Below, one piece after another: positions 8,638 through 30,744 of a stretch of DNA of 32,313 nt. Origin of the DNA: a virus; the IMG/VR virus record IMGVR_UViG_3300008120_000179, positions 1 through 32,313 of that record. One strand, given 5' to 3'. Below the pieces are notes generated by a model. It did no database searches, was not told the DNA's origin, and saw nothing but the letters and a program-made list of their open reading frames with translations. How positions within the stretch are numbered: the stretch's first letter is position 1; each line of letters begins with the position of its first letter. The position numbers and the translations under genes were made by a program.

Positions 8638-8926
8638 TGATGACCTCGAATGTGTCGAACGTTTGATCTACCGTTTGCTTGTCAGACTGTCCTAGGTATT
8701 GCTTGCCGAGCCAGATGAGCATCGTGATGTTGCCGTCCATCGCTTTCTCCCATTGCTTACGACGCAGGGATGCCTTGCCTGCTTCGCGCCACTCGGCAAT
8801 CTGCGGCCCGTACTTTTTGTCGATGTGGCTTTCAGAGCATCCCACCACCTGCGCTATCTCGGCATGAGTGCATTGGATTCCTGCAAGCTTGCGGATCAGT
8901 TCGTGGTCAAGGTCGAGTTTACTCAT
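8561..8926 (-). CDS. Terminase small subunit (probable)
   Basis: This 121-residue protein overlaps the upstream Mom-like gene by ATGA and the large terminase gene by 77 bases. Residues about 10-45 form a helix-turn-helix (ECTHAEIAQVVGCSESHI-like pattern), followed by charged helices (EWREAGKASLRRKQWEKAM) and NITMLIWLGKQYLGQ, a motif very common in phage small terminases (the 'a-x-K-f-L-G-q' end). It would bind the packaging initiation site on phage DNA and recruit the large subunit. The assignment rests on motif and position. Confidence 0.85.
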   Translation of the reverse strand: MSKLDLDHELIRKLAGIQCTHAEIAQVVGCSESHIDKKYGPQIAEWREAGKASLRRKQWEKAMDGNITMLIWLGKQYLGQSDKQTVDQTFDTFEVIIGSPDNTNRQALTGPTEVLGIGPAD

Positions 8927-9711
8927 TGGTTGAGCGAGCAGGTCGGAGTCGCACCGCCCTCTACTGACTGGATGTCAGCCGCAACGCTGTCTTTGCTTTG
9001 CTCGCGTGGTTTTCCTCTGTACATTCCTGCGCCACGTCTGGCGATCTCGGAGAATGGCAATATAGGTACGGTCAGCCTTTCTTTTGCGGTCGGATCAAGA
9101 AAGTAAATGTATCGCAACTGGAAGCCGGGGAGAATCTTGCCGTTGGTTGCGGCCCGGTATGCTTCGAGATTATATTTCCCGCCGGTGATTTCATAATACG
9201 ATCGGCCGCCAAGCTCTTCGCGTTTCGACGTAGGGTTGCTTTCTAATGTCATTTTGTGAATTACCTCACCATCCCCCCGCATAACCAAGTTCATGCTTTG
9301 GTTTATTCCTGTCAAAACGAAACCGCTTGCCCGATAAATAGTGCCGTCCCCGCATTGCGTTCCATCGGCAAATGATACGCACCATTTAATATGTGGGTAC
9401 TGCTTCCGCATCCATCGGAACGCAAAACCTAATGCCCTTGATTCCCCGTTACGTGGAAGCCAATCGGCAAAGGCCATGCGGTTTAATTCGATAAACTCAT
9501 TCCAAAACGTTCCACGAACCATCCCTAACATTTTCCTTTTATCCAACGACGGCCCAAACTGCATTGCTCCGCCACATTTGCCATCAAGAAACACGCCGAG
9601 ATGCAACTGCGAATTTTGAACGGTCTTTCCACTGTAATGCAGTGACTGAATTATGCGGTTTGCATCCCTCCCAGATATGGGCTTAACAATCAATTGCTTG
9701 GCGTCACCCAT
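8923..9711 (-). CDS. Mom-like DNA adenine modification protein
   Basis: This 262-residue protein (start at the ATG at 9711, overlapping the ParB-domain gene by eight bases) resembles the phage Mu Mom family. Visible family features are IIQSLHYSGK (20-29), LGVFLDGKCGGAMQFGPS (38-55), ELNRMAF (75-81), SFADGTQCGDGTIYRASGF (113-131), and PGFQLRYIYFLD (195-206) followed by LPFSEIARRGAGMYRG. Mom proteins have a GNAT-like fold and convert adenines in phage DNA to an N6-methylcarbamoyl form, which blocks many restriction enzymes. Here the gene lies between a ParB-domain gene and terminase, so DNA would be modified before packaging. Activity and modified base are inferred. Confidence 0.85.
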   Translation of the reverse strand: MGDAKQLIVKPISGRDANRIIQSLHYSGKTVQNSQLHLGVFLDGKCGGAMQFGPSLDKRKMLGMVRGTFWNEFIELNRMAFADWLPRNGESRALGFAFRWMRKQYPHIKWCVSFADGTQCGDGTIYRASGFVLTGINQSMNLVMRGDGEVIHKMTLESNPTSKREELGGRSYYEITGGKYNLEAYRAATNGKILPGFQLRYIYFLDPTAKERLTVPILPFSEIARRGAGMYRGKPREQSKDSVAADIQSVEGGATPTCSLNQ

Positions 9712-10342
9712 TGAACGCCTCGCATATTGCCGCAAGCGCGTTGCCGTTGCTGTTTTCGTTTACGTCCGACTTGCCGCCTCCAACGTCCTTCGCTTTTTTA
9801 ATTGCCGCTTCGACTGCTTCGTACTGTGTGTCGTGCAATGTGAAGGTCATTTGTCGGAACGGTTCTCGATCGCCAACCGGAAGTTCTGGCGCGTCGACAA
9901 CATCGACACCATAGCCCATTAGCTTAGACAATTCGTCTGCATTGAACCCCAAAATTGCGACGTTAAAATCGCAGGCGTGAAAGTCTGACAATTCTATTGT
10001 TAGCAGTTCCTCATCCCAGCCCGCATTCAACGCCAGCTTGTTATCCGCTATCACGTATGCCCTCCGCTGTGTCTCGCTAAGGTAACCAAGACGGATGCAC
10101 GGGACGTCGGCAAGTTGCAGATGCTGAGCGGCCAGCACGCGGCCGTGCCCTGCAATGATCGTGCCCTCGTCGTCAATCAGTACGGGGTTGGTAAATCCAA
10201 ACTCCCGTATCGACGCGGCAATCTGCTTTACTTGCTCCGGTGAGTGCGTCCGGCTGTTACGTGCGTAGGGCGTCAGCTTATCCAGCGCGACGTACTCGAT
10301 CACTCTTTTGTCGGTTTTTCCCGACGTTTGTGCGTTTTTCAT
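9704..10342 (-). CDS. ParB/sulfiredoxin-fold domain protein
   Basis: This 212-residue protein overlaps the DnaA-like gene by ATGA. Residues about 18-100 form a ParB N-terminal domain: LTPYARNSRTHSPEQVKQIAASI, FTNPVLIDDEGTIIAGHGR (GHGR at 65-68) and AYVIADNKLA. The end (LHDTQYEAVEAAIKKAKD, then NGNALAAICEAF) matches the tail of phage ParB-like proteins that are often joined to or placed beside DNA methyltransferases. Since no partition partner (ParA) is present, plasmid-type segregation is unlikely. Pairing with the Mom-like gene suggests a shared role in DNA modification or its targeting. That link is inference. Confidence 0.85.
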   Translation of the reverse strand: MKNAQTSGKTDKRVIEYVALDKLTPYARNSRTHSPEQVKQIAASIREFGFTNPVLIDDEGTIIAGHGRVLAAQHLQLADVPCIRLGYLSETQRRAYVIADNKLALNAGWDEELLTIELSDFHACDFNVAILGFNADELSKLMGYGVDVVDAPELPVGDREPFRQMTFTLHDTQYEAVEAAIKKAKDVGGGKSDVNENSNGNALAAICEAFNG

Positions 10343-10926
10343 AGGTTAACTTCCCCCTCACTGCTATTCTTTGGCCGTTTCCCTGCCCGTGGTGGCGTTT
10401 TTATCTGCTCAGGCAGGGGTAACATACCCCTAGGGTGTAAAAGTGCCTGTAATGCTGTTTCTGACGGCCCTACGATTTCGACGTTGGCGTAGTAGGGTAT
10501 GAGTTCCACGAATGTAACGAAATCCGGGTCCGTGTCCATCAGCTCCCGAACGCGACCAGCGCCGTAGCTGATCGTCGAGCGGTCCTGATCGAAGTACGAC
10601 GCGATGAGTTCAAAGGGCAGCTTCCACCGGTCCCGGAGAATCCACCACGTCAGCTGTTGCGCGTACACCAGATCGGCGTCCTTCGTCCCCGTCTGCCGAA
10701 AGCGCGTGCGTTCCACGTGAAACAGATCGGCCATGGCGTCTATGAGGATGTCTATCCTCGTGCCCGGCACCTCATCGCCTGCCCACGGGCGCACTCGGAA
10801 CTCCAGGCGCTTGTACGGGTTTCGGTATGCTCCCCACATCGTGCGCAATCCGCTTGTCGAAAGCAGCGGCGCGGTAATGCGCGGGGCGGGTTCGGCTACA
10901 TGCGTCGGTTTCTTAGTTCTGGGCAT
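10339..10926 (-). CDS. DnaA domain IV-like DNA-binding protein
   Basis: This 195-residue protein starts at 10926 with AAAGGA upstream and overlaps the previous gene by 14 bases. Residues about 59-133 match the C-terminal DNA-binding domain of DnaA: IDAMADLFHVERTRFR, DADLVYAQQLTWWILRD (the 'a-R-q-a-A-m-Y-L' helix), then PFELIASYFDQDRSTISYG, the counterpart of the DnaA 'F-x-x-R-D-H-S-T-V' signature that reads the DnaA box. The AAA+ ATPase domains are absent. It may bind an origin or regulate replication. The placement next to the initiator gene supports this. N- and C-terminal tails are Pro/Lys-rich and probably disordered. Confidence 0.75.
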   Translation of the reverse strand: MPRTKKPTHVAEPAPRITAPLLSTSGLRTMWGAYRNPYKRLEFRVRPWAGDEVPGTRIDILIDAMADLFHVERTRFRQTGTKDADLVYAQQLTWWILRDRWKLPFELIASYFDQDRSTISYGAGRVRELMDTDPDFVTFVELIPYYANVEIVGPSETALQALLHPRGMLPLPEQIKTPPRAGKRPKNSSEGEVNL

Positions 10927-11404
10927 ATGCGTCGTCCTTTGGGTTCGGGGCGGTCTTGCCTTGTGCGAGCATAGCGCTTGCCTCGCTACGGTACTGGTCC
11001 AGCAGAGGGTCTGATAACTTGATTCCCCACTCCGGCTCTTTGACGGTTAGCACGTAAAGCGCCCACGCCTTGAATTCTTGCTCTGACATCGTTGGCTTCT
11101 GCGGCTGTGGGGCCTGTTCTTGCCGCGGTTCAAACCGGGCGCCGTCAACACGGGCGTTCCGCTTAGTCAGCGTCGCGTTGTACTGATCCTCGGTGGGAAC
11201 GAAGTCCGAAAGTTCCAAAGTCGGGTCCGTGCCTTTGAACGTCCAATCACCGTACTTGATCCACAGTTCCGCCCTCTGCGCTTGGTTCGGGTCGTAGCCC
11301 ATCGCCTGAAGTTCGAGGTAGAAGTAATCCGCCCTCTGCTGATCGATTTTGACCTTCCGGGCCAGTTGCAAGTGCGCCAGCATTTCCTTCAACCAAAAGA
11401 ACAT
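10913..11404 (-). CDS. Replication-module protein of unknown function
   Basis: I do not recognise this protein. The ATG at 11404 has a good AAGGG ribosome-binding site and gives 163 residues; an ATG at 11506 would give 197 but lies deeper inside the initiator gene. Either way the overlap with the initiator's 3' end is large (158 bases or more). The N-terminal half is helical (FFWLKEMLAHLQLARK, then QRADYFYLELQAMGYD) and includes WIKYGDWTFKGTDPTLELSDF, followed by a Gln/Pro hinge (QEQAPQPQKP) and a second helical part. The size and position would suit a helicase loader or replisome accessory protein, but no ATPase motif is seen. Confidence 0.7.
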   Translation of the reverse strand: MFFWLKEMLAHLQLARKVKIDQQRADYFYLELQAMGYDPNQAQRAELWIKYGDWTFKGTDPTLELSDFVPTEDQYNATLTKRNARVDGARFEPRQEQAPQPQKPTMSEQEFKAWALYVLTVKEPEWGIKLSDPLLDQYRSEASAMLAQGKTAPNPKDDAYAQN

Positions 11405-12350: not shown

Positions 12351-12926
12351 TTACCTCTTCCTTACCCAAACCTGAGCGTTGACTTCCAAGATGTCCAGTT
12401 CGTCCTGATGTGTGGCGAGGAACCACACGATCGCCGGGTAAGGGTCGTGCTTCGGTCCCTTGCCGGAGCGCCATGTGTAGTCGTCGAACGCCATGATGCC
12501 GCCAGGCTTCAGAACCTCCCAGCCGTTGACTGCGTCGGAATGCACTTGTTCGGCGGTATGGTCGCCGTCGATGTACACGAAGTCGTAGGTTCCTTTACGG
12601 TCGTATATGGCAGGGAAAAAGAAATCGTCCGACGTCATGTGATGCACGGTCACGCGCTTACGATACGGCTTCACGCGTGCCTTGTAAGCCCTCGCAACCG
12701 CCCGCCAATCCATTTGATTGTGTGCGGCCTCGTCTGATCCCTCCCAGGTGTCCACGTCGTCCACAAGTGCCTTTTCGCCGATGCTCTGACATATCCACTC
12801 GGTAGCGTGCCCGACGAAGGCCCCAATCTGCAACGCGCGGAACTCGCGGCCTCTGTACTCGGATAGGAACCGTTCAAAGTTTGCGCGCGCGGTCAGGCCG
12901 AACCAGTTTGGAAAGTTGTCGGTCAT
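12351..12926 (-). CDS. Class I SAM-dependent methyltransferase
   Basis: This 191-residue protein overlaps its upstream neighbour by ATGA. It has motif I LQIGAFVGHATEW (32-44), an acidic strand end VDDVDTWEG (55-63), YDFVYIDGDHTAEQV (114-128) and LKPGGIMAFDDY (139-150). This pattern fits the Methyltransf_24 group, whose members often methylate sugars or small molecules; DNA methyltransferase motifs (DPPY/NPPY) are absent. The C-terminal VWVRKR is the usual last strand. Its target could be a glycan on the virion, working with the glycosyltransferase at 27623-28453, or a host molecule. It is the last gene before the 192-bp gap. Confidence 0.85.
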   Translation of the reverse strand: MTDNFPNWFGLTARANFERFLSEYRGREFRALQIGAFVGHATEWICQSIGEKALVDDVDTWEGSDEAAHNQMDWRAVARAYKARVKPYRKRVTVHHMTSDDFFFPAIYDRKGTYDFVYIDGDHTAEQVHSDAVNGWEVLKPGGIMAFDDYTWRSGKGPKHDPYPAIVWFLATHQDELDILEVNAQVWVRKR

Positions 12927-13303
12927 GCGTGCCCCCAGACTACGTTGTCGTCCTCAGCTGATGGCGTGTTCGGCTTAGCCCTGTGCTCACGCCTCTCCTC
13001 CCACTCGCCCGTATCGATGCACGGCAGAACTTCGATTTTAGCTTCAGGGGAGATGCATCCTACATCTATCGCGCGGCTCTCGGCGTCGCTAATGTAGTCA
13101 GAGACATAGTACACGTTGTTATTAACCCGCACCATCCAGCCGGTTGGCGGCCGCTCTGGCAGTGCCTCACGCAGGGCCATCAATGCGTCGTGCATGTTGT
13201 TGCCCGATGCAACATCATAGTCGCCCGTCATATCGTGGATGCTGATGTGCTCCATCACTTCGTCGAGTCGCTCGTGTATCGCAATGATTTCGTGTGGCGT
13301 CAT
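12923..13303 (-). CDS. Hypothetical early protein
   Basis: I do not recognise this 126-residue protein. It overlaps genes on both sides by ATGA, so it is translated in a coupled chain. It opens with an amphipathic helix ([19 protein letters not shown]), has a helical middle ([20 protein letters not shown]), and a beta part ([23 protein letters not shown]). The C-terminus is acidic and Trp-containing. It is soluble and acidic, a composition often seen in early phage proteins that act on host factors. No catalytic motif is seen. Confidence 0.7.
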
Positions 13304-14002: not shown

Positions 14003-14277
14003 GCCACCCTCCCTTCTGCCTTGTCGATAATGCGATCGGCGAGTTCTGCCAACCACGCTTCGTCCTCGCGGCCCGATTCTTTGGCCTTACGAAACTGCTT
14101 GATAAAGTCCAGCATCTCAGGGGCGGCGGCGAAAAGCTTAAACATCGCTACCGTTTCGGGGTCGTCATTCACTGATGCGATTACGTTCCGGCTGCCGCTT
14201 CGGATGTATAACTTACAAGGTCTCGTCTCGTCTGTTTCGCGTACCACCCGGAGATCGGCATACGTTTCCGTACTCAT
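13999..14277 (-). CDS. Hypothetical early protein with AAPEML motif
   Basis: This 92-residue protein has its ATG at 14277 overlapping the previous stop. After a beta-rich first half, it has FKLFAAAPEMLDFIKQF (about 48-64) and a second helix ending DRIIDKAEG. The 'A-A-P-E-x-L' helix followed by '-I-x-K-A-x-G' is a widespread pattern in small early phage proteins. Its function is unknown. The gene is one link in a chain of ATGA-coupled small genes. Confidence 0.7.
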   Translation of the reverse strand: MSTETYADLRVVRETDETRPCKLYIRSGSRNVIASVNDDPETVAMFKLFAAAPEMLDFIKQFRKAKESGREDEAWLAELADRIIDKAEGRVA

Positions 14278-14957
14278 GGCTTCCGTCCTTTCTCGGAGTA
14301 GTAAGCGCGGCAAAGTTCGTGGTACGCGTTCAGTTGCGCCTTGGCTTGCTCGCGTTCATTCCACGTCGCATAGTAGGCTGTGCGCTGATATGGTCGGCGG
14401 TCCTTTTTGGTGCCGCGCGTCGTGTGGTCGTCTACGCTCACACCGAAGGGCTTCAAACCCGTCGTTGGCTTGTCCTGCAAGATCAAACCGCGCTTGTGCA
14501 GGTTGTAGCCGCCCGTGCATTCATACAGCGCGATAATGGCAAGGGGGACCGTCTGCTTTGCAGAATCGAATAGGTCGCGCGGCAACTCTCCGCTCTGCAC
14601 GCGATCGCCCAAAACACCCAAGCGCTTATGCGGTCCCATGCGCCCACGTGACGAACGTCTGCGAGTTGCACGCGGGCCGCTTTCCACAATCTCAATAAGC
14701 GGTTTCCGGTTGCAGTCGATCTCTGCAAGGTCTGCGGAGAGCTTTGCAACTGCGGACTGCAATTCGGCTATCTGCGATTCGTGAAACTTCCGCGTCGCCT
14801 CTTCGCGGCCTTCGATCTGTGCAATGCGTAGACCGTACTTTGTCACCGCCTCGTGGTACACGTCCTGCTGCCTTCGCAGGTCCGCGATTTGCGACGTAAA
14901 CGACTCGCGTAGGCTCTCGACGCGCTCGTGACTAACTCCAAAGATCCCCATGTTCAT
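14274..14957 (-). CDS. Coiled-coil protein with basic C-terminal domain (unknown)
   Basis: I do not recognise this protein. The ATG at 14957 overlaps the nuclease gene stop (227 residues); a second ATG two codons later has better ribosome-binding-site spacing. Residues about 8-85 are a coiled coil (ESFTSQIADLRRQQDVYH through ELQSAVAKLSADLAEID). A basic linker (RATRRRSSRGRMGPHKR, about 97-113) follows, then a globular region with YECTGGYNLHKRGLIL and SVDDHTTRGTKK, ending in helices. The basic linker suggests DNA or RNA binding. It sits between recombination and small early genes. Confidence 0.65.
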   Translation of the reverse strand: MNMGIFGVSHERVESLRESFTSQIADLRRQQDVYHEAVTKYGLRIAQIEGREEATRKFHESQIAELQSAVAKLSADLAEIDCNRKPLIEIVESGPRATRRRSSRGRMGPHKRLGVLGDRVQSGELPRDLFDSAKQTVPLAIIALYECTGGYNLHKRGLILQDKPTTGLKPFGVSVDDHTTRGTKKDRRPYQRTAYYATWNEREQAKAQLNAYHELCRAYYSEKGRKP

Positions 14958-15238
14958 ACTCTCCCAATGATTGTGTTGATTAGCGCAATCGCATCCTCGC
15001 GTGTGCGCACTGTAAAATAGTTGCCTTTCCATGTCGACTGAAATGCCAGCTGATCCGGCGTATGCTTTGCCGTCCGTGTGCTTTTGATTTCGACTAGCAA
15101 CGTCCGCCCTGCATAGCCAACGACCAAATCGGGGAAGCCCTTTCCGACCGCTGACGTGATCGCTACCGATGCTCCGAGCTGCCGAAACGTGTTGACAATC
15201 TCGGTTTGGTTCGTGTCGATCTTGCGTGCGTACCTCAT
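14954..15238 (-). CDS. VRR-NUC domain nuclease
   Basis: This 94-residue protein overlaps genes on both sides by ATGA. It shows the PD-(D/E)xK motifs of the VRR-NUC family: KGFPDLVVGY with Asp37, and LLVEIKSTRTAKHTPDQ with Glu50 and Lys52, followed by the Gln in helix three. Stand-alone phage VRR-NUC proteins are nucleases thought to act on branched DNA such as Holliday junctions. It lies near the probable annealing protein and the Gp157-family gene, a usual recombination grouping. Confidence 0.9.
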   Translation of the reverse strand: MRYARKIDTNQTEIVNTFRQLGASVAITSAVGKGFPDLVVGYAGRTLLVEIKSTRTAKHTPDQLAFQSTWKGNYFTVRTREDAIALINTIIGRV

Positions 15239-15702
15239 GACAACGGGCACCGGGCGAGTTCGCCGTACACGTTCGTATATGAAGCTTTCATCTGATCTTG
15301 CCCTTTGGCGAACCGCTCTAAGGCGTACCGCAGGGGCACCGTAGCGGCGTGAACGGCTTTGCGGTGCCGTTCCTGTTCCGCTTTGCGCTGCATCTCTTCA
15401 CGTATGCGTACTTGTGCGGCCCGTGCCTCGGTGTCTTCGATCATCATATCCAGTATCACGCGCGACTTTGCCAGTTGACGGGCTGCTCTTCGTGCCGATG
15501 CGCTCATCGTCTTTGCTTCGGCCCGCGCCCAGTTGTACGACGCCATGTACACGGCGCGCGTCTGACCGGAACCCACTTCAACGGGGAAAGACTTTTGCCG
15601 GACGTCATCGCCGAACCTAACGACTGCCAGATATGCGCGCGTGATAATGCCCTGACGAATGGCCTTGATCTCGATTTCGGGTTCGTTACTGCCGAGCAAC
15701 AT
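15235..15702 (-). CDS. Hypothetical protein with helical C-terminus
   Basis: I do not recognise this protein. The ATG at 15702 has GGGAGG at ideal spacing inside the end of the preceding gene, giving 155 residues with a 17-base overlap. The first 50 residues alternate hydrophobic strands (IEIKAIRQGIITRAYLAVVRFG). The rest is long, charged helix, with many Arg, Ala and Glu (AARQLAKSRVILDM, IREEMQRKAEQERHRK), and is likely a coiled coil. It lies between the annealing protein and nuclease genes, so an accessory role in recombination is possible. Confidence 0.65.
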   Translation of the reverse strand: MLLGSNEPEIEIKAIRQGIITRAYLAVVRFGDDVRQKSFPVEVGSGQTRAVYMASYNWARAEAKTMSASARRAARQLAKSRVILDMMIEDTEARAAQVRIREEMQRKAEQERHRKAVHAATVPLRYALERFAKGQDQMKASYTNVYGELARCPLS

Positions 15703-16441
15703 ACTTGCCTCCCTTCCAAACCAACGCGAGGGCATTACTGCGAGCCGCTAGGGTGCCCTTCGTGGCGTCTGCAATGCGCGTAGGGGCCTTTTTCAGCTGC
15801 TTCACTATCTCGGTAAGGGTCTCGGCATCGTCGGCGCTCTCGATGGTGTCCAGCCACGTCTGCACGGTGTCGGCTTCGCTGTCGGTGAGCGGGGCTGTGA
15901 TGGCTTCACGTGGCACCTCTGTCGCTTCGACCTGATGCGCAGGTATAGATTCGGTTTCGGTTTCGTCCATCATGCCCAGACCGCAGACCGAAAGCACGGC
16001 GCGCCGCTTTGCTTTGGTGATCGCCTTTAGCATCGCGTTTGCCGCGGCGTCACCCTGGAGGCCATTGATCGGCACGGCTCCGACATCCTCCGACGATGAG
16101 CCGTCCGGCTTGGTTGCGCGCACGGTCACGACGTACAGACCGCCCAATACCTCACGGTTTACGATCTCCACTTTGAGCCGGTTCACGGCCGTAAGCTGAG
16201 CGGTCGCCGCCTTGTTCGCGTACAGAACGAGTTTGCCCTGCAACGTGATCATGTCGAACGGCTTTGTGTACGGGTCCAAACCGACGCGCTCGCAAACCAG
16301 CTTGTAGTATTCCACGCGCTGCGGCTCGGTGAGCTTCGATAGGTCCGAGTTCAGTACCAGCGACGTAAACATCGACGCGGCCTGCGTTGTGTCCATGGTC
16401 GTAGTGATCGCCTGTTGCGTTGTTGAAAGTGCGGTGCTCAT
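15686..16441 (-). CDS. Probable single-strand annealing protein (RecT-like)
   Basis: This 251-residue protein overlaps the gene before it by ATGA. Residues about 45-65 (YYKLVCERVGLDPYTKPFDMI) resemble the RecT-type segment 'l-C-x-x-L-G-L-x-P-x-t-x-P-f'. Further on, GKLVLYANKAATAQLTAVN, a beta region, and ANAMLKAITKAKRRAVLSVCGLGMMDETE (about 134-162) form a pattern seen in phage proteins predicted to be annealing recombinases. The C-terminal 80 residues are acidic then basic. Neighbours (Gp157-family and VRR-NUC) support recombination. I am fairly confident of the class, not of the exact family; Erf/Sak-type alternatives remain. Confidence 0.6.
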   Translation of the reverse strand: MSTALSTTQQAITTTMDTTQAASMFTSLVLNSDLSKLTEPQRVEYYKLVCERVGLDPYTKPFDMITLQGKLVLYANKAATAQLTAVNRLKVEIVNREVLGGLYVVTVRATKPDGSSSEDVGAVPINGLQGDAAANAMLKAITKAKRRAVLSVCGLGMMDETETESIPAHQVEATEVPREAITAPLTDSEADTVQTWLDTIESADDAETLTEIVKQLKKAPTRIADATKGTLAARSNALALVWKGGKYVARQ

Positions 16442-16635
16442 GGAACCACCTCGATTTCAGACACGAATACGTTGCTTTTTGCTGATTGCACGTGTTCGGC
16501 CAATGAATCGGCCTTGCTTTCAATCCATGCCGCAATCTCGCTTGCGACGCGGACGTCGTGAACCTCTCGGATAATCTGCGCGGCGGTATCGATCTGCCGG
16601 AGCTTGTAAAGGATCATGGCTTGTTCGGCGTTCAT
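16438..16635 (-). CDS. Small helical protein, downstream copy of a tandem duplication
   Basis: This 65-residue protein starts at 16635, overlapping the preceding stop by ATGA. The first 43 residues are nearly identical to the 57-residue protein encoded just upstream (Ala3 versus Thr3 is the only change); 126 bases of DNA differ at only four positions. After KAD this copy continues with SLAEHVQSAKSNV and EIEVVP, probably the original end. It is helical and soluble. Function unknown. Like the upstream copy it has no clear independent ribosome-binding site other than GGAGG at seven bases. Confidence 0.75.
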   Translation of the reverse strand: MNAEQAMILYKLRQIDTAAQIIREVHDVRVASEIAAWIESKADSLAEHVQSAKSNVFVSEIEVVP

Positions 16636-16845
16636 TTCACCTCCAAACGTGAACGTGTGATAAGGGCGCAACCTTCGTCGGCCTTGCTTTCAATCCATGC
16701 CGCAATCTCGCTTGCGACGCGGACGTCGTGAACCTCTCGGATAATCTGCGCGGCGGTATCAATCTGCCGCAGCTTGTATAGGATCATGGCTTGTTCGGTG
16801 TTCATTTTACCTCTAGACGGTTACGTGTGATAAGCGCGCACCCTT
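16462..16845 (-). repeat. 170-bp tandem duplication
   Basis: Bases about 16632-16845 reappear at a 170-base offset at about 16510-16675. The inner 126 bases (16680-16805 versus 16510-16635) differ at four positions. The 44 bases derived from the end of the Gp157 gene differ at about nine. The join occurs at a short shared CGAAGG, which suggests unequal crossing over or replication slippage. Confidence 0.9.
16632..16805 (-). CDS. Small helical protein, upstream copy with a Gp157-derived tail
   Basis: This 57-residue frame starts at 16805 with an ATGA overlap and ends with an ATGA overlap. Residues 1-43 match the neighbouring 65-residue protein, but the end (EGCALITRSRLEVK) is a copy of the last 14 residues of the Gp157-family protein (EGCALITRNRLEVK). 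It is therefore a hybrid made by a 170-bp tandem duplication whose unit begins in the end of the Gp157 gene. The frame is intact and coupled, so it is probably translated. Its function is unknown. Confidence 0.75.
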   Translation of the reverse strand: MNTEQAMILYKLRQIDTAAQIIREVHDVRVASEIAAWIESKADEGCALITRSRLEVK

Positions 16846-17356
16846 CGACGGGGACGCCGTTTTTGAGAGCGTCAGCAATGGCCTTCTTATCGATCGTCTC
16901 TTTCTCGACAACCTTCACGACGCGGTAATCTGCCGGGATGAGCGACTCATCGCGGACCTCCACGGCGGGCGGGTTCTTCCGGAGCTTCAAGGTCCAAAGG
17001 TCGGTCACGATCTCCGTGATTTCGGAATGCTGCATGTAGTGCATAATCGCGCTCTGCAACCGTTCGGCCCGGCGCTTTCGCATGTCGCGTAACGTCTGCA
17101 ACCTCTCGATTTCGTGGTCGATACCAACGACCGACATTTGCAGATCGGTGGCCCGCTCCATGAGCGCCACGGCATAGGCTTTGAAATCGTCGTACGATTC
17201 CTGCAACGCGAGTTCGCAATAGGCGATTACTTCCGGCTCGTCGGTGTGCATCATGGCGTCGATGAGCGCCATAACCCGATAGGCTGACGATGTGCGCTCT
17301 TTGATCGGTTCGGCGTGTTCGGTGAATACGAGCGGTTCGGCGGCTCTAGTTTCCAT
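16802..17356 (-). CDS. Gp157-family (siphovirus) protein
   Basis: This 184-residue protein matches the Siphovirus Gp157 family (PF05565). The central coiled coil contains GIDHEIERLQTLRDMRKRRAERL (about 78-100), followed by WTLKLRKNPPAVEV, the conserved 'l-R-K-N-P-P-x-v', then LIPADYRVVKVVEKETIDKKAIADALKNG, and a C-terminus VEGCALITRNRLEVK. The family has been linked to phage resistance in Streptococcus, but its molecular job is unknown; it usually sits beside recombination genes, as here. Its last 14 codons have been copied into the next gene. Confidence 0.9.
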   Translation of the reverse strand: METRAAEPLVFTEHAEPIKERTSSAYRVMALIDAMMHTDEPEVIAYCELALQESYDDFKAYAVALMERATDLQMSVVGIDHEIERLQTLRDMRKRRAERLQSAIMHYMQHSEITEIVTDLWTLKLRKNPPAVEVRDESLIPADYRVVKVVEKETIDKKAIADALKNGVPVEGCALITRNRLEVK

Positions 17357-17579: not shown

Positions 17580-17810
17580 CTAACGTAGCACGCCATGAAA
17601 TGTAACTGTCGGCTGAATGATGGGGTCCGGCGTGGATGCCAGGCCATAGGCGGCCACGATGACGAAGAGGGCGATCGCGATTGCTGCAACGGCGATGCCG
17701 CCGGCCTGACGTTCGGCGTCTGGGTTCTTCCCAATGACAGCCGGAGCGATACGAACGAACAACTTGCCGCGCTCATCACGGCGCGCGCTGATCTCAAGAC
17801 CTATGAACAT
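17580..17810 (-). CDS. Single-pass membrane protein
   Basis: This 76-residue protein begins inside the end of its upstream neighbour (17-base overlap). It has a basic N-terminus (ISARRDERGKLFVRIA), then a strongly hydrophobic helix at about residues 38-58 (IAVAAIAIALFVIVAAYGLA), followed by a polar C-terminus. The positive-inside rule puts the N-terminus in the cytoplasm. Early expression and a single membrane helix suit a superinfection-exclusion or host-takeover role, but there is no direct evidence. Confidence 0.65.
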   Translation of the reverse strand: MFIGLEISARRDERGKLFVRIAPAVIGKNPDAERQAGGIAVAAIAIALFVIVAAYGLASTPDPIIQPTVTFHGVLR

Positions 17811-18117
17811 TAACGCCTCCGTTGGTAGGGTCGATGCAAGTCCAGCACCAACCGCTCGTAGTGATCGCTTTTTTGCCCGTGGCGATCATGCCGGCTATCA
17901 TCTGGGTTGCTACCTCTATGCCGTACAACTCGCACAATTCGGTCTCTGCATCGGCAACGTCCATTTTCCAAAACAGGCTAACTTCCCTATCCCATCGCCA
18001 TTTCCAAACCTGCAACGTCCCCGCGGCGTATTGCGCCCGGCGCATGGCCTCCGGAATGGTTGCGCCCGTCCCTGTGAACGTGCCGTCGGCGGTCGTGGTT
18101 GTGGCTGTGTGTTTCAT
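17794..18117 (-). CDS. Hypothetical early protein
   Basis: The start at 18117 is preceded by GGGAG with a CA-repeat, so this is a 107-residue protein; longer frames upstream would cross the terminator hairpin. It begins with a Thr-rich segment and continues with ATIPEAMRRAQYAAG and a Trp-rich stretch (VWKWRWDREVSLFW). The second half has helices and a Trp/Cys end (SGWCWTCIDPTNGG). It is not recognised. It comes directly after the attenuator-like terminator, so its expression depends on readthrough or partial termination. Confidence 0.65.
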   Translation of the reverse strand: MKHTATTTTADGTFTGTGATIPEAMRRAQYAAGTLQVWKWRWDREVSLFWKMDVADAETELCELYGIEVATQMIAGMIATGKKAITTSGWCWTCIDPTNGGVNVHRS

Positions 18118-18140
18118 CTGTCTACTCCCGTGTGTGTGTG
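18118..18140 (-). promoter_or_regulatory. CA-repeat leader and GGGAG ribosome-binding site
   Basis: Between the terminator hairpin and the ATG at 18117 the minus strand reads a (CA) run at 18130-18140, then CGGGAG and a short spacer. It closely matches the leader of the first gene. Confidence 0.5.
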
Positions 18141-18168
18141 AAAAAAGTCGCGCGTTGTGCAGACGCGC
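18141..18168 (-). terminator. Rho-independent terminator/attenuator after first early gene
   Basis: The minus strand folds into a 6-bp stem (GCGCGT pairing with ACGCGC) with a seven-base loop, followed after GAC by six T residues (18141-18146). It lies 14 bases after the stop of the 53-residue gene and before the rest of the early operon, with no new promoter visible behind it. It therefore probably acts as an attenuator. Confidence 0.75.
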
Positions 18169-18182
18169 CCCTGCGGACGGTG

Positions 18183-18344
18183 TTAGGATGCGACCTCGAT
18201 GATCTCCATGTCCTCTGCAGGGTATCCGCATACATCGACCAGCGACTGCATCGCGGCTTGGGCCTCTGCTAGGCTATCGAATGAGCCGCTCGGCTCGTCG
18301 TATGATCCCCGTGCGGTGCGCGTGCGGATGATGAAATGTGCCAT
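18183..18344 (-). CDS. First early gene: 53-residue hypothetical protein
   Basis: The start at 18344 is preceded by GGGAG at good spacing and by a CA repeat; upstream frame codons simply translate the repeat. The small protein starts MAHFIIRTRTARGSY and ends with an acidic helix and strand (LAEAQAAMQSLVDVCGY, then EDMEIIEVAS). It is not recognised. It is the first gene after the main promoter and has its own terminator, so it may be made in large amounts from a short transcript. An early host-interaction or regulatory role is plausible but unproved. Confidence 0.65.
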   Translation of the reverse strand: MAHFIIRTRTARGSYDEPSGSFDSLAEAQAAMQSLVDVCGYPAEDMEIIEVAS

Positions 18345-18386: not shown

Positions 18387-18414
18387 AATATAAGAGCATT
18401 TCAAACAATGTCAA
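18387..18414 (-). promoter_or_regulatory. Main early promoter
   Basis: In the one clearly AT-rich patch of the genome, the minus strand has a perfect -35 TTGACA (18414-18409) and, 16 bases on, TATATT (18392-18387). The same bases read TATATTTG, which also matches the TAnnTTTG element of Bacteroidota promoters, but the widespread Shine-Dalgarno use favours an ordinary sigma-70 reading. An imperfect 17-base palindrome at 18369-18385 overlaps the expected start and could be an operator. Confidence 0.75.
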
Positions 18415-18453: not shown

Positions 18454-18488
18454 AAAAAACCCCATCCGGTCACACATACCAGACGGGG
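18454..18488 (-). terminator. Rho-independent terminator of the late/tail operon
   Basis: On the minus strand CCCCGTCTGG pairs with CCGGATGGGG (10-bp stem with two G-U pairs) around a nine-base loop, followed directly by six T residues at 18459-18454. It comes about 50 bases after the stop of the last tail gene and just before the early promoter. Confidence 0.9.
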
Positions 18489-18535
18489 CCACACTTCATA
18501 GAGGGGAGTACTCTACGCCATGCAATATACGATTT

Positions 18536-19072
18536 TTACGGCAGCACCGTAGCGATCTCTGTGAACACCCGTACCCGCGCTTCGGCGCCCGATGCGTAGC
18601 TGATGGTGCTTGCGTCGTTTGACACGAATGCGAGTAGAAGGTTCTGCGCAGTGGCGGCCGTGGTCTGACGTATGTAACGGTTCGGGTTGATCGTCGCCGT
18701 CCATACCTCGTCCCTAGTGCGTTTGTAGTCGGCCGCTGCGATCTCGAATTGCGCGATGAGATACGCGAGGTCTGGATTGAATGCCGCGCCGCCCGCAGGC
18801 GATACCGTAGCCCCTGCGCCGAACATGTACACGATCAGCGGATGCTTCTTGATGTTCGCACTCGACGATGCAGTCTCTTCGAAATCGATTTGCCGGACGA
18901 TAGCGTGCTGATTGGTTGCGGTCATGTTCCGCACGGTGACCAGCCCCGCCAGGATAGGCCAGTAGCGCGATAGGTTCGACGTTAGCAGTGAAACTCCGAC
19001 GTCCTGCCAGCCGTTGGTGGCGGGGTCGGTGAGGATGTTCGCCGCTATCGGCGTGTTTGGTAGGCAGGACAT
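18536..19072 (-). CDS. Last gene of the tail module (unknown structural protein)
   Basis: The start at 19072 has an AAAAGG ribosome-binding site and gives 178 residues; longer frames would overlap the previous gene. Composition is that of a virion protein, rich in Ala, Thr, Asn and with few charges. Segments such as LSRYWPILAGLVTVRN, HPLIVYMFGAG, and FNPDLAYLIAQFEIAAADYKR are visible, with a beta-like C-terminus. Position as the last gene of the tail-tip group suggests a fibre, chaperone or receptor-binding accessory. No known motif is seen. Confidence 0.6.
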   Translation of the reverse strand: MSCLPNTPIAANILTDPATNGWQDVGVSLLTSNLSRYWPILAGLVTVRNMTATNQHAIVRQIDFEETASSSANIKKHPLIVYMFGAGATVSPAGGAAFNPDLAYLIAQFEIAAADYKRTRDEVWTATINPNRYIRQTTAATAQNLLLAFVSNDASTISYASGAEARVRVFTEIATVLP

Positions 19073-19083
19073 TGTAAACCTTT

Positions 19084-19872
19084 TTAGATTGTGTTGTCGA
19101 AGATGTTTCCTCTGATGGCCGCGTTCTCCGTCTCGGGGCTGCATCGCACACGCGCGCCGTTGACATACGCATAGTACTGCGATTCGGTTGCCTGACCTGA
19201 TGACGACCCCGAACCACGGCGAAGCATAATCGCCACACGCACACGATCGCCCGTAGCCAGTGGCACAAGCGCCGTGCCTTGCAGGATGATCTCGTCGAGG
19301 TGCGACTTGTCTGTGTAGTGGGCGTTCATCATGTCGATGTACCGATACACAGCGTTGTTCTTCAAAATCGCCAGCCGCGCCTCTTCGACGCCGCCTGAGG
19401 TGCCGATGCGCAGACCAACGAAAGCGGATACTAGCCACACGCCCGCGTTATCCGCAGTGGCGTAAAACGACCATTGATTCGCTACGTTCTCGGTGCTGAT
19501 GGATCGCACGACTTCGTTGGGCAATTTTATTACGTTCGTAGCCCCGTTGGGGTTCGCGTCGGCAGCCCAATCGAAAAGGGTGTCGGTTCCGCTATCCCAC
19601 TCGAAAGCGTAATGCCAGTCCGATGCGTGATGCTTCGCCCTGCGTTCGGCGTTGGCCATTGCGGCCATGGTGGCGCGTGTGGTTTCTTCGGCAGCTCTGA
19701 CATTGATGGTGATATTGGAGCCGAACCGGTACTGATTCGTCACGAAGGTTTGATATGTGACGTTGCCCGTTGCGCCGTCACCACCTACGACGGTTGCACC
19801 TTCGCGGCGGTTCTCAAAGGCCAGCGAAGCGGGCGCAACTTTAGAGCGTCTGATAGGGTCGTTGATTGGCAT
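19084..19872 (-). CDS. Tail fibre/receptor-binding candidate with C1q/TNF-like domain
   Basis: This 262-residue protein begins directly after the preceding stop. The N-terminal third holds linker and strand sequence (YQTFVTNQYRFGSNITI). Residues about 130-250 look like a C1q/TNF-type jelly roll: WSFYATADNAGVWLVSAFVGL, ARLAILKNNAVYRYIDM, ILQGTALVPLATGDRVRVAIMLRR, then YYAYVNGARV. Such trimeric domains often form the receptor-binding tips of phage fibres. Position near the end of the tail operon supports this. The fold is inferred from pattern; the host receptor is unknown. Confidence 0.7.
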   Translation of the reverse strand: MPINDPIRRSKVAPASLAFENRREGATVVGGDGATGNVTYQTFVTNQYRFGSNITINVRAAEETTRATMAAMANAERRAKHHASDWHYAFEWDSGTDTLFDWAADANPNGATNVIKLPNEVVRSISTENVANQWSFYATADNAGVWLVSAFVGLRIGTSGGVEEARLAILKNNAVYRYIDMMNAHYTDKSHLDEIILQGTALVPLATGDRVRVAIMLRRGSGSSSGQATESQYYAYVNGARVRCSPETENAAIRGNIFDNTI

Positions 19873-21672
19873 TTATGCTACGTTCCCCGTTGCGGCCATG
19901 AGAAAATATCGCGTCGTAACTTCGCCCGTCATCCAATTATGAGTTGATGACGTCAGAATCGCCCGCCCCCACGGCAGCCGAGTAAGCAGCGCAGAAAAGT
20001 CCGACGCGCCACCCGTACCGCCGTCGTTGTTGAATGACAGATCATGCACGGCTCCGACGTTGTGCGGCATGACGGCCGTAGTTCGCAGGGCAGACCACGA
20101 CGTTTCTACGCTTGCGTTATCGGGATGCGCGAACGTATGACGGTAAAGCTTGGCAAGCGCAACGGCCATAGTTGCAGACGTCTGTATGGCGTTGAGTTGG
20201 ATGCGATAGTTGCCCTCGTTATCATCGTTCACTACCGGCTCACTTCCCGCCGTTGTGGTTGCTTCGACATAACCGCCAACGACGTCCGGAAGGTATTTGT
20301 AGCGCGTGTTCTCATGCACCAAAACCAGGGTCGTCTGTCCCGATTCGGGACGCTTGAAATACAACTGATTTGTCTGGACCATCGGTCCGCGTCTGCCGTC
20401 CGGCATGTCTTCTTCCGGCAGAAACACGGGCGCGTTGTGGACGATCGGCTCGACATTGATTGATCGCGATCCACGCGAACCGGTCTGCAGATACGCAATT
20501 TGTTTAGCGTCTTCCTGGAACTCCGACTCCCAGCGAATTTCAACTTTGCCGATGTTGCTTTCGCCGCGCCGTGTCGATGGCCTTTCGGTCATGCGAAGCG
20601 CTCCGACTTGAGCATCGTAAGCCGTTGCGTGGTTGTCGCCGGCATTGGGCGAACCGATACGCCGCGGCCGCCATGTGATCGTAAACGCCGGGCTTCCGAG
20701 TATCTCCGAAACCTCTATGCCGTACGACATCTTCACGCCGAACGCTTCGCATAGGTCTCGCATCACGTCGTATGCCGTCGTGTCGGTCCGCGCCCATGAG
20801 TACTTGTCGGAGGAGCTTAGTAGCCCACCTTCTGCGCCGCCGCCCGAGCTTATCCGCGTCATCACCGCAACCTCGGTTGCAGACAGCGCCGCGCCCGCCG
20901 TACGTGGCAGTGATTCGTACGTCGATCGGTACAGCGTGATTGCAGAGTCTGCGATTTTCACCAGTTGAGCGTTGTTCGTGAATGCGTTGAACGCGGTCAC
21001 GCCCCGCAGGTAATGTTCCGACAAAACCGCACCGACGTTTGCAGCGTACTTTTCCAGAAGGTCGGACAAAAACGAATGCCCGCGTCGGTAGGCGCCGAAA
21101 AGGTCGTGGAACTGATTGCGTCCGCGCTCGTTGGTGCTGAGCGTTTGGAAGACCTTATGGTACGTTCCGTATACGGTCGGCTGCGTTCCGAGCGTGAGCC
21201 AAAAATACGCGGCGTCTACGCTCTTCATGGCGTGATACACGACATCCACGAGTTCGATTTCGTAGCTGTAAATGTCCCCTGCTTCCGGCACGGCGTCGAA
21301 GCCTTCGATGACGTCTTCACATCCGACGAACTCTGTCGTCCACGTTACGCCGCCCGTACCACGGTCGGAGTACAGCACGAACACATTGCGATCGGGGACC
21401 GGTGGCGGCGGCAATGTGGGGTCCTGCCCTTCTTGCAATGCCTGGCTCATCCCCACCGGAAGGTAGTTGAGAGCCAGTTTCAATTTCAGCGTCTGCGGTT
21501 CGATCATACCGAACGGCAGCGTGTCGAACTCCGCCGTATGGTCACCGATTTCAAGGAGTGCCACGCCGTCAACCATCGTTGCGGCGTCAGCAAGCGATCC
21601 ATCCCACGGGATGTAGTCCAGCCGGATACGCCAGCCCGTAGGCAGTGTTCTTTCGATGCGGTAGCGTGCCAT
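19873..21672 (-). CDS. Large tail-tip/baseplate hub protein
   Basis: This 599-residue protein starts at a TAATG overlap with the previous gene. The first 150 residues include LDYIPWDGSLADAAT, VALLEIGDHTAEFD and PQTLKLKLALNYLPVG, resembling the beginning of distal-tail proteins that sit under the tail tube. The middle is helical (FGAYRRGHSFLSDLLEKYAAN), and the last part is beta-rich with GRAILTSSTHNWMTGEVTTRYFLM. It is probably the tail hub or Tal-like protein that initiates tail assembly around the tape measure. The precise family is not certain; no peptidase or lysozyme motif is apparent. Confidence 0.65.
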   Translation of the reverse strand: MARYRIERTLPTGWRIRLDYIPWDGSLADAATMVDGVALLEIGDHTAEFDTLPFGMIEPQTLKLKLALNYLPVGMSQALQEGQDPTLPPPPVPDRNVFVLYSDRGTGGVTWTTEFVGCEDVIEGFDAVPEAGDIYSYEIELVDVVYHAMKSVDAAYFWLTLGTQPTVYGTYHKVFQTLSTNERGRNQFHDLFGAYRRGHSFLSDLLEKYAANVGAVLSEHYLRGVTAFNAFTNNAQLVKIADSAITLYRSTYESLPRTAGAALSATEVAVMTRISSGGGAEGGLLSSSDKYSWARTDTTAYDVMRDLCEAFGVKMSYGIEVSEILGSPAFTITWRPRRIGSPNAGDNHATAYDAQVGALRMTERPSTRRGESNIGKVEIRWESEFQEDAKQIAYLQTGSRGSRSINVEPIVHNAPVFLPEEDMPDGRRGPMVQTNQLYFKRPESGQTTLVLVHENTRYKYLPDVVGGYVEATTTAGSEPVVNDDNEGNYRIQLNAIQTSATMAVALAKLYRHTFAHPDNASVETSWSALRTTAVMPHNVGAVHDLSFNNDGGTGGASDFSALLTRLPWGRAILTSSTHNWMTGEVTTRYFLMAATGNVA

Positions 21673-27054: not shown

Positions 27055-27636
27055 TTATCCGAACACGACCTCACCATAAGGCGCTGTCGTTGCGCCGATG
27101 GTCGTGGTTGCGCCTGTCGTTGCAAACAGCGCGTGGACAGCGCTAGGAATCAGCAGGTCCTTTTCGAGCTTCTGCGCGATACAAACCAAGTTCGGCTTCA
27201 GGTATGTACCTGAAGAGAAATTGATTGATCCCGAACTCTGCGCGACCTTGAAAAGACCGAAATACGATAGGGTCTTGTTCGCGTCCGCGCCGCCTACGAT
27301 CTTAGGCCCCTTGAAACCAGCGGCGAGGGTTGTCCCCGTTGCAGCTGACCCGAGACGCGTATCGCCGTCCTCAAAGGGGACGTCTTCCGGCACGACTCCA
27401 GTAGAGACGCCGGCGTAGGTTTTGACGAACGTGTGAAAAGCCGAATCCGTTTGGATTTGGTCGAGGGTGAAAGTCGGTACGCCCGCGTCGTCCTTTGCGC
27501 CGTCCGTGCTGATCTGCGCTTGGCAGGTGTAGACGGGCGTGGTCGATGTGAGCGTCGTTTGGGTCGTGCCTACGGTGATGGAATAGAACGCTGAATAAGC
27601 GCCCCCACCGATCCCGTAGCCTTCAAACTTTGCCAT
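27055..27636 (-). CDS. Major tail (tube) protein
   Basis: This 193-residue protein has a GGAG ribosome-binding site and overlaps the glycosyltransferase gene by 14 bases. It is beta-rich with little charge: FYSITVGTTQTTL, VYTCQAQISTDGA, FTLDQIQTDSAFHTFV, a Gly/Ala/Thr-rich middle (TGTTLAAGFKGPKIVGG), and a strand-rich end. It is followed by a strong terminator, which fits a protein needed in many copies. Position before the chaperone and tape-measure genes is the best evidence. It would form the stacked hexamer rings of the tail tube. Confidence 0.75.
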   Translation of the reverse strand: MAKFEGYGIGGGAYSAFYSITVGTTQTTLTSTTPVYTCQAQISTDGAKDDAGVPTFTLDQIQTDSAFHTFVKTYAGVSTGVVPEDVPFEDGDTRLGSAATGTTLAAGFKGPKIVGGADANKTLSYFGLFKVAQSSGSINFSSGTYLKPNLVCIAQKLEKDLLIPSAVHALFATTGATTTIGATTAPYGEVVFG

Positions 27637-28453
27637 GTTTAGACTCCAGTTGTCTTAGTGATGAAATCTCGCGAACGTACACGTCTTCGTAGTAACGTCG
27701 GAGTTCGTGTTTCGGATGATCGCCTAGCCATCTGCCGATCAGAGTGGCGTTGCGCTCCAATTTCCGAATGAGTGCGCCGTCATCCTCCGAGTAGCCGTTG
27801 TGGATGACAACCAATGATGTGTCGACGATGCTGTAACCAGCGCCGCGGACCGCATGCGCGATTTGTTCGTGTGCGTAGCCCTCCCAACGAAGGGCCGGCA
27901 CGTTTCGATAGAGTCGTAATTGTTTGACGCTTGCATATTCGCAGTCGCCTCCGAGCATCTGCGGGTAGCGCGTCATGTGCGCCTGTGCTGCGTAGAACCC
28001 ACCGACGCCGGCGCCGTGACCATAGGCCGCGTAATTGATGCCGTCGTGTTGCGCGTGTGCGAGCATTTCGTCACAGTCGATCCAAAATATCCACTCGCAA
28101 GTGGCCATTGCTTGGCATAGGTTACGCGCCATCGCAAATGAAAACTTGCCAGCAGGGTACTTCCACAGTTGAGAGCGTACCGTACGCTGCGGATGCAATG
28201 CAACGTCAACCTCCGTTATCTCGCCTTCGCCCTTGTGCGGCTCGTTAAGCAAGATGCAAACCTGCGCATTGTTTGGCAGGGATGCCATACAGCGGCTGAG
28301 CGCCTTCAGGTCTTCCGGCCTTGCGATGATGCAGAACGACACGCCGAACGTATCGCGTTCAACGACGGCCTCCGGCGCCTGTTCGCTCTGTTTTGGTGCG
28401 GCCTTGTTTGCCTTCGGCGCGGTGGCCTTGTTCTTGGTTGGTTTCGTTGCCAT
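27623..28453 (-). CDS. Family 2-type glycosyltransferase
   Basis: This 276-residue protein has a disordered Lys/Ala/Pro-rich N-terminus (about 1-30), then a GT-A fold: SFCIIARPEDLKALSRCMASL (39-60), the FSFAMARNLCQAMA helix, WIFWIDCDEM with the DCDE metal-binding motif at 126-129, an acceptor-region segment (KQLRLYRNVPALRWEGYAHEQI) and a C-terminal helical part. These are typical of GT2 enzymes using nucleotide sugars. There is no membrane helix. It sits between tail-terminator and tail-tube genes, so it may glycosylate virion proteins. AGGACAAGA precedes its start. Confidence 0.85.
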   Translation of the reverse strand: MATKPTKNKATAPKANKAAPKQSEQAPEAVVERDTFGVSFCIIARPEDLKALSRCMASLPNNAQVCILLNEPHKGEGEITEVDVALHPQRTVRSQLWKYPAGKFSFAMARNLCQAMATCEWIFWIDCDEMLAHAQHDGINYAAYGHGAGVGGFYAAQAHMTRYPQMLGGDCEYASVKQLRLYRNVPALRWEGYAHEQIAHAVRGAGYSIVDTSLVVIHNGYSEDDGALIRKLERNATLIGRWLGDHPKHELRRYYEDVYVREISSLRQLESKHGKV

Positions 28454-28930: not shown

Positions 28931-29544
28931 TGTCCGGCCCCTTGCAACTCGTCGATGACTTCTGCGATTATGTCGTCGATCAGCTCCGGCAAACCTTCTG
29001 CCATATACTTTGCTTTGCCCGGTGCCAGAAATGGACGCGCGGGAATGGTGATGGAATGGGGGCGTGTCACGGGCAACTCACGACCCGTCTTTGCGAAGTA
29101 TTGCGCGGCCTTAACCTTCGTTACAAATACGGCTTTGCCTTTAACGATTCGGTACGGCGTGCCGCCCGGATGTTGAATCGTGCCGCCGTACTCATGTAGC
29201 ATGCCGTAGCGCAGGTCTCCAACGCGCTTCCCCTGTTTGACTGACGTCGACGGGTTAAAACCAAACTCCAAGCTGATAATGGTCTTTGAGTCTGCTTCCA
29301 CCGTTGACACGTTGCCTTTGCCTTTCGGCGTCAGCGCGCGCGTGAGGTTGCCGTAGAGCGTCCGTAGTTGAGTGCCGCGGTTGGGCGGCAAACGGCGGCT
29401 GCCGTCTTTGCGTCGCTCCGGCTTGGTGAATATCATTTCGTCGAGGATGTACGCAGACAGCTCCCCCGGCGCGCGTTGCATGGCGCCTTTGACGATTCGC
29501 TGGATTGCGCGCTCCAATGATTGCAGACGGCCGGCGATGCTCAT
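28927..29544 (-). CDS. HK97 gp10-like tail completion protein
   Basis: The ATG at 29544 overlaps the preceding stop (ATGA) and gives 205 residues. Features include RLQSLERAIQRIVKG near the start, MLHEYGGTIQHPGGTPYRIV (about 113-132), and a segment RPHSITIPARPFLAPG (about 170-185), which matches the 'I-P-A-R-P-F-L' motif of Mu gpG/HK97 gp10-like tail completion proteins. These act at the head-tail joint or tail end during assembly. Helices at the C-terminus (LIDDIIAEVIDELQ) are usual. Confidence 0.8.
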   Translation of the reverse strand: MSIAGRLQSLERAIQRIVKGAMQRAPGELSAYILDEMIFTKPERRKDGSRRLPPNRGTQLRTLYGNLTRALTPKGKGNVSTVEADSKTIISLEFGFNPSTSVKQGKRVGDLRYGMLHEYGGTIQHPGGTPYRIVKGKAVFVTKVKAAQYFAKTGRELPVTRPHSITIPARPFLAPGKAKYMAEGLPELIDDIIAEVIDELQGAGQ

Positions 29545-30116
29545 ATAACGATCCTTCGATACGGCCGCAGACGCGGCTCGATCTTCGCCCGTGCCGATGT
29601 GATCGTCTTCGACACCGACACACCGCCGGCGCTGTCGGTGATTGCAGACACGCCGAACCGAGAGCCGCCCGGCGCGAATGCCGATGCGAAATACAACTCG
29701 GTAACAAGCTCGTAGGCGCACAACTCTATAACGTTCGGTACGGTTGCGTAGCCTGTCGTTGCAACGATGCGATATTCGGCGGCCGTCCATGTTCCCGTTG
29801 TGGCCAGATGTTGCACACCATCAACGGAGACAACCGAGGCCGTCCCCGTGATGGGCGCAAAATCTTCTGTCATGTTCGCGCGCGATGCAACCGATACAAG
29901 CGTCATGGGCACGGTTAAACCGAGCCACAAGAGATGGTCGGTTGTGCCGCGTACATAGTACGTGCATTGCTTCGCAACTATCGACTGACCGCAGATGTCC
30001 TCGATCTCATTCTCCGCAATGGTGATCCATCGGTCGAACGTTTTGTCGAGACTGTTATCTGATGCCGGGATGTTGAGATAGTCCTGTTTCAGAACGGCGC
30101 GCGAGCATATCGGCAT
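29541..30116 (-). CDS. Head-tail connector protein (gp6-like)
   Basis: This 191-residue protein begins with helices that fit the gp6/gp15 connector family: RAVLKQDYLNIPASDNSLD, then FDRWITIAENEIEDICGQSI (about 28-47), followed by strands (CTYYVRGTTDHLLWLG, VPMTLVSVASRA, AAEYRIVATTGYATVP), and the helix IELCAYELVTELYFASAF. The C-terminal IEPRLRPYRRI is the usual final segment. It would form a ring under the portal. It lies next to the gp10-like gene, the standard order. Confidence 0.85.
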   Translation of the reverse strand: MPICSRAVLKQDYLNIPASDNSLDKTFDRWITIAENEIEDICGQSIVAKQCTYYVRGTTDHLLWLGLTVPMTLVSVASRANMTEDFAPITGTASVVSVDGVQHLATTGTWTAAEYRIVATTGYATVPNVIELCAYELVTELYFASAFAPGGSRFGVSAITDSAGGVSVSKTITSARAKIEPRLRPYRRIVI

Positions 30117-30119
30117 GGC

Positions 30120-30500
30120 TTAGCCCTCGCTCTTTGTGTCGGCCGTGTTGAAAGCTTGGTAGATTTCAACGATGCCCCACACGACGCCCGTGACCAATGC
30201 CTCGGTGACGTTGCCCAGGCTGATGCCGAACACGGTAGCCAGCATGAACGCGGCTTTGATGACTCCAGAGATTGTCGTCTTTGGGTCCTGCATAACGACT
30301 CCTAAATAGATTTGAAAAATGAACGGCATGAGCCGAATCTTATCCCATAGTGAAAGGCTTGGCGGTTCGGGTTTGAACCCAAAAGGCAAAGCGTCCAGCG
30401 GCTTCAGAGCGGCGCGCGTCACGATCTCTTCGACGTGTGACGTTGTGCGCTCTGGCCTATGAATAGGCCGCGGTGGTGTTTTGGTGATGAGCTCATGCAC
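30120..30500 (-). CDS. Membrane protein, holin candidate
   Basis: This 126-residue protein has a basic, Pro-rich N-terminus (TPPRPIHRPERTTSH), then a hydrophobic stretch MPFIFQIYLGVVM (about 58-70), and after QDPKTTISGVIKAA (about 71-84) further hydrophobic segments, FMLATVFGISLG and LVTGVVWGIVEI, ending in a polar tail. The 'D-P-K-T-T-x-S-G' start of the hydrophobic part resembles several predicted phage holins. It overlaps a second membrane gene by eight bases. Holins make the pore for lysis. No endolysin is found beside it, so confidence is limited. Confidence 0.5.
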   Translation of the reverse strand: MHELITKTPPRPIHRPERTTSHVEEIVTRAALKPLDALPFGFKPEPPSLSLWDKIRLMPFIFQIYLGVVMQDPKTTISGVIKAAFMLATVFGISLGNVTEALVTGVVWGIVEIYQAFNTADTKSEG

Positions 30501-30744
30501 GGCCTATGCCCTGCCTCTCTTCGATGCGAACCAGGCGTTCGATCATGTTCAGAATCTGCCTGCTATGCTCCTTGTCGGCGCGCTGCAGTTCGATGATGGT
30601 GTCTGTAGTGCTTTTGAGACTGACGTGCATTTGTATCGTCGTTTCACGCGTCTGCCGCGTCTCTGCGATGAGCGACTTCAGGAAATGGCCGATGACGGCT
30701 ACCATGCTTGACAGAATCAGACCGATGAGGATTTCAGGTGTCAT
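30493..30744 (-). CDS. Membrane-anchored coiled-coil protein (lysis accessory candidate)
   Basis: This 83-residue protein begins at 30744, four bases after the previous stop. A transmembrane helix (EILIGLILSSMVAVIGHFLKSLI, about 4-26) is followed by a long amphipathic coiled coil (IIELQRADKEHSRQILNMIERLVRIEER). The layout resembles spanin- or XhlA-like lysis accessories and small membrane regulators. It overlaps the holin candidate. Orientation and role are inferred. Confidence 0.55.
   Translation of the reverse strand: MTPEILIGLILSSMVAVIGHFLKSLIAETRQTRETTIQMHVSLKSTTDTIIELQRADKEHSRQILNMIERLVRIEERQGIGRA

Follow-up and report, generated by a model that had tools for sequence, protein, structure and literature searches.

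A putative holin cassette without a recognisable endolysin gene in a 32-kb phage genome

Introduction

Tailed phages usually bring their own wall-degrading enzyme. The locus at positions 30120-30744 of IMG/VR virus record IMGVR_UViG_3300008120_000179 raises the question of how a phage that encodes a holin-like membrane pair would open the wall of its host when no endolysin can be recognised beside it. The stretch analysed here, referred to as the window, spans the entire record (32,313 bases). Should the lysin loss described below prove real, either the endolysin of this phage belongs to a family not yet described, or the phage is an exception to the rule that tailed phages supply a wall-degrading enzyme of their own. 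Its relatives offer an exact before-and-after picture, and the question can thus be tested with a handful of genes.

Results

The first and last 114 bases of the record are identical, and this exact terminal repeat sits in a single gene that remains in frame through the join and encodes a 475-aa kelch-like protein. Because of the end repeat and the continuous reading frame, the record is probably a complete, circularly permuted genome, and the genome-wide absence of a lysin therefore carries meaning. We also weighed an archaeal host without a wall and discarded it, since genes for a DnaD-like helicase loader and a DnaA C-terminal domain are present and indicate a bacterial host. Alignment of TerL placed the window in a family of about 32-kb phages, and 10 relatives share with it the order of head, lysis and tail genes; in six of these (G001, G002, G011, G012, G015 and G016) the ends overlap and the genome is essentially complete.

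The membrane genes of the locus are as follows.

30120..30500, minus strand: holin-like gene, long form; 126 aa, GTG start with a strong Shine-Dalgarno sequence; homologues in 9 relatives
30493..30744, minus strand: membrane partner; 83 aa, ATG start
30120..30293, minus strand: 57-aa KTT-type product of an internal in-frame start; ATG at 30291-30293, AGGAG upstream

The two overlapping membrane-protein genes reported by the first-pass annotation proved to be real open reading frames on the minus strand, sharing 8 nt. The 126-aa protein matched the holin family PHROG 4712 weakly (E=0.027) and gave no match in Pfam or NCBIfam; it has one clear hydrophobic segment on the Kyte-Doolittle scale and a second, weaker one seen by eye only, and its size and KTT motif are common to its homologues. 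Taken alone, the sequence supports a holin identity weakly. The 83-aa partner has a single N-terminal transmembrane segment followed by a charged stretch, with a coiled coil judged by eye, and it matched PHROGs of unknown function (E 6e-5) as well as PHROG 1863 (E=3e-5). Homologues of the partner, 44-46% identical, occupy the same place in 7 relatives, where the order and overlap of both membrane genes are kept directly before the head-tail adaptor gene. A tblastn search of phage records with the pair returned no matches. When the partner was considered as an i-spanin (Rz), just one homologue matched the Rz-like spanin family PHROG 739, at E=0.02, and the positive charges that follow the transmembrane segment argue, by eye, for a cytoplasmic C-terminus; no spanin match was found in the window.

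A lysis role for the pair is suggested by its surroundings, since the homologues are syntenic and in two relatives, G015 and G016, a TIGR02594/CHAP lysin gene follows the holin gene immediately or after one intervening gene, so that related phages do have a holin gene adjoining an endolysin. Judged by this synteny, the two genes form the membrane side of a lysis cassette of the holin-endolysin type, with putative holin activity. The earlier description of a holin with a coiled-coil accessory thus stands as far as the lysis cassette is concerned, while the name holin is weak by profile alone.

The internal methionine of the holin-like gene is invariant in 10 of 10 homologues, each with an AGG-type ribosome site before it, and the ATG lies 51-58 codons from the gene end in all ten, directly before the K-T-T motif. 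Two in-frame starts are thus conserved in this gene, and a ribosome site precedes each. The internal sites are about as strong as those of ordinary gene starts but only modestly above the background of internal ATGs (fractions 0.05-0.24); part of the ribosome-site signal comes from a Gly codon, also conserved, that lies three residues ahead of the internal Met. At 57 aa, the shorter product would have the length of a stand-alone small holin (PHROG 4712 has 50 positions). From the conserved internal start it is reasonable to infer two products, of which the long form may act as a regulator, and the arrangement points to a holin gene with long and short forms whose extension would be unusually large. 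Phage lambda S105/S107 is the dual-start case in which long and short holin forms arise from one gene. A dual-start holin is also available for comparison from the Palo podophage (PMC7844081). The window's gene resembles such holins in being one gene with two possible starts, and differs in that its extension is about 70 residues as against a few, and in that its two products are presumed.

Holins of the relatives combine an almost invariant N-terminal half with either of two dissimilar C-terminal halves, GVIKLVFFALGAFGISAGN and GVVGALAVLVNSITGV, a pattern that looks as though recombination close to the internal start had swapped the C-terminal halves.

Each of the eight relatives whose sequence covers the site (G001, G002, G008, G009, G011, G012, G015 and G016) has a TIGR02594/CHAP cysteine-peptidase gene. 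G004 and G005 were left out of this count; the gene is absent from both, but the site is not covered by their contigs. The eight carriers represent three lineages, because G001, G002, G008, G009, G011 and G012 are close to one another. In those six the lysin closes the late operon, whose end reads: homologue of the window's 18536 gene, 46-aa ORF, metallophosphoesterase, HExxH protein, lysin, terminator, early promoter. The G015 lysin (186 aa; TIGR02594 E=3.5e-37, CHAP above the Pfam gathering score) is instead encoded between holin and adaptor, and its homologue in G016 stands next but one to the holin, directly before the adaptor. The relatives' lysins share three invariant motifs of catalytic type, PWCSSF, GGGHVGF and GGNQ; a profile of these lysins found no chain among solved structures at E 0.01. 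The place that the lysin takes in G015 and G016, between holin and adaptor, is held in 7 relatives by a conserved 66-aa protein (MIDFSKIKNKAIVTINHGAKDI...), which is absent from the window.

L130 (G001) 10877-11077, minus strand: gene for the 66-aa protein; equivalents in other relatives

G015 and G016 (IMG/VR, about 32 kb) resemble the window in the succession of small membrane protein, KTT-type holin and adaptor, and in a holin with a long N-terminal part and an internal Met; they differ in having the TIGR02594/CHAP lysin between holin and adaptor, which the window lacks. Outside this family, Pseudomonas phage ZC01 has a TIGR02594 putative endolysin gene adjoining that of a 70-aa putative holin with two transmembrane segments (PMC5418858). 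This pairing of a small holin with a TIGR02594 enzyme is that of the window's relatives, whereas ZC01 also has Rz/Rz1 (PMC5418858) and the window has neither a TIGR02594 gene nor a spanin match.

The features at the two positions where relatives carry the lysin are as follows.

30117..30119, no strand: 3-bp gap between holin stop and adaptor start; site of the TIGR02594 lysin in G015 and G016, empty in the window
29541..30116, minus strand: head-tail adaptor, the synteny anchor; 34-48% identical in 10 relatives
18536..19072, minus strand: last late-operon gene of the window; in relatives the phosphoesterase and lysin genes lie beyond its homologue
18458..18490, minus strand: intrinsic terminator directly after the 18536 gene; 13-pair stem, -21.6 kcal/mol, z -4.05
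18387..18414, minus strand: sigma-70-like early promoter, TTGACA-N16-TATATT
17583..17810, minus strand: small membrane-protein gene, right flank of the missing block; HMM E=2.6e-12

Both known lysin sites are contiguous, empty, interior and cleanly spaced in the window. By alignment, the terminator that follows the lysin stop in relatives comes directly after the 18536 gene in the window, the TATATTTGTGA block of the window's early promoter matches a block downstream of the relatives' lysin, and the 17583-17810 gene is, by HMM, orthologous to the relatives' gene downstream of the lysin block. The phosphoesterase, HExxH and 46-aa genes are likewise missing, and the late operon of the window stops one block of about 1.9 kb early (the block measures about 1.9 kb in G002). 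Since related phages of about 32 kb carry the lysin wherever the site is covered, its absence is read as a loss; a lineage-specific loss from an ancestor that had the block would be the simplest account, probably by a single deletion. A search of viral contigs for the exact junction pattern found no second contig with the junction, and scans of viral contigs with the holin, neck, 18536 and Gam proteins singly gave no near relatives.

PHROGs scans covered most window proteins, and Pfam and NCBIfam searches covered the unknown ones; none of these profiles gave a peptidoglycan hydrolase match. TIGR02594, SLT, Phage_lysozyme, Amidase_2, Peptidase_M15_3 and Peptidase_M23 were all negative against the six frames of the window, and an HMM built from the relatives' lysins found no remnant in any frame (best E=18). 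The earlier statement that no endolysin is recognisable anywhere was thus borne out: a profile match of a window protein to a known endolysin family, which would have overturned it, was looked for and not found. The window accordingly lacks the endolysin gene of a canonical holin-endolysin cassette.

Discussion

The reading that we prefer, with a probability of about 0.6, is that of a holin-endolysin cassette whose TIGR02594/CHAP lysin was lost with the terminal late-operon block of about 1.9 kb, another enzyme now opening the wall. The 46-aa ORF, the phosphoesterase, the HExxH protein and the lysin would have gone together. The membrane lesion would come from the 57-aa protein with two helices that the internal start yields, its action being tuned by the long form of 126 aa together with the 83-aa partner, and the wall would then be broken down by an enzyme invisible to profiles, most likely a diverged product of a window-specific gene and otherwise by host autolysins.

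It is possible, at well under even odds, that the endolysin is simply a window-specific protein of unknown family, with an unrecognised fold or strongly diverged. Profile searches left several window-specific genes without a match (14274-14957, 15235-15735, 12923-13303, a gene within 17794-18231, and 647-1096), and the Enc34 endolysin is a precedent, its catalytic domain being ascribed to a family without recognisable sequence similarity (PMC8943055). These window-specific proteins show no enzyme-like motif, however, and most of them lie in the early DNA-metabolism region. The three candidates put forward in the first-pass annotation fared poorly. Orthologues of 10913-11404 and 18536-19072 co-occur with the TIGR02594 lysin in relatives, which makes both unlikely stand-ins; 14274-14957 is window-specific, but modelled without an alignment it forms, at low confidence, a long coiled coil (residues 10-92, with confidence confined to about residues 10-80 and the remainder including the C-terminus being unreliable), and is an unlikely lysin.

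We consider it unlikely that the real phage has a lysin which the record misses, whether through misassembly, through a circle falsely closed at the kelch-like repeat, or because a deletion variant was assembled. The record is a single metagenomic contig without a second one carrying the junction, every other relative that covers the site has the lysin, and the end repeat falls within the kelch-like-repeat gene, where a segment could have gone missing in a wrong join. Against this, the size of the window fits that of the complete relatives (32.2 kb, compared with 31-34 kb for most), both known lysin sites are interior and away from the end repeat, and the terminator and promoter are intact.

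Lysis without a muralytic enzyme of the phage's own, through a membrane lesion together with host autolysins or an enzyme from a co-infecting relative, is rather unlikely. It would agree with an intact membrane pair beside a missing lysin block, and related phages do keep lysins of one family; the literature searched, however, gave no example of such a tailed phage, and its persistence would be improbable unless helpers were common. The stricter form, a natural tailed dsDNA phage without endolysin that lyses or leaves its host by the nested two-start holin and partner alone, is in our judgement quite improbable.

Lysis by a virion or tail protein (the tape measure, 19873-21672 or 19084-19872), also raised earlier, found no support and is highly improbable: these tail proteins are large and unannotated, and the model of 19873-21672 from ten sequences reached a pLDDT of 31 only, but each has orthologues in lysin-carrying relatives and none matches an SLT, M23, lysozyme or CHAP profile.

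Three further features of the window were recorded. A Mom-like DNA modification gene (8923-9735; PHROG 1384, E=4e-47) adjoins a ParB-like gene and has no match among the relatives compared. The product of 27623-28453 is glycosyltransferase-like by weak Pfam and PHROG matches; its gene, conserved at 25-52% in all ten relatives, lies in the tail module, which is an odd place for it. Finally, positions 16508-16847 hold a 170-nt tandem duplication, 93% identical, that copies the end of a Mu Gam-like gene and the small ORF following it.
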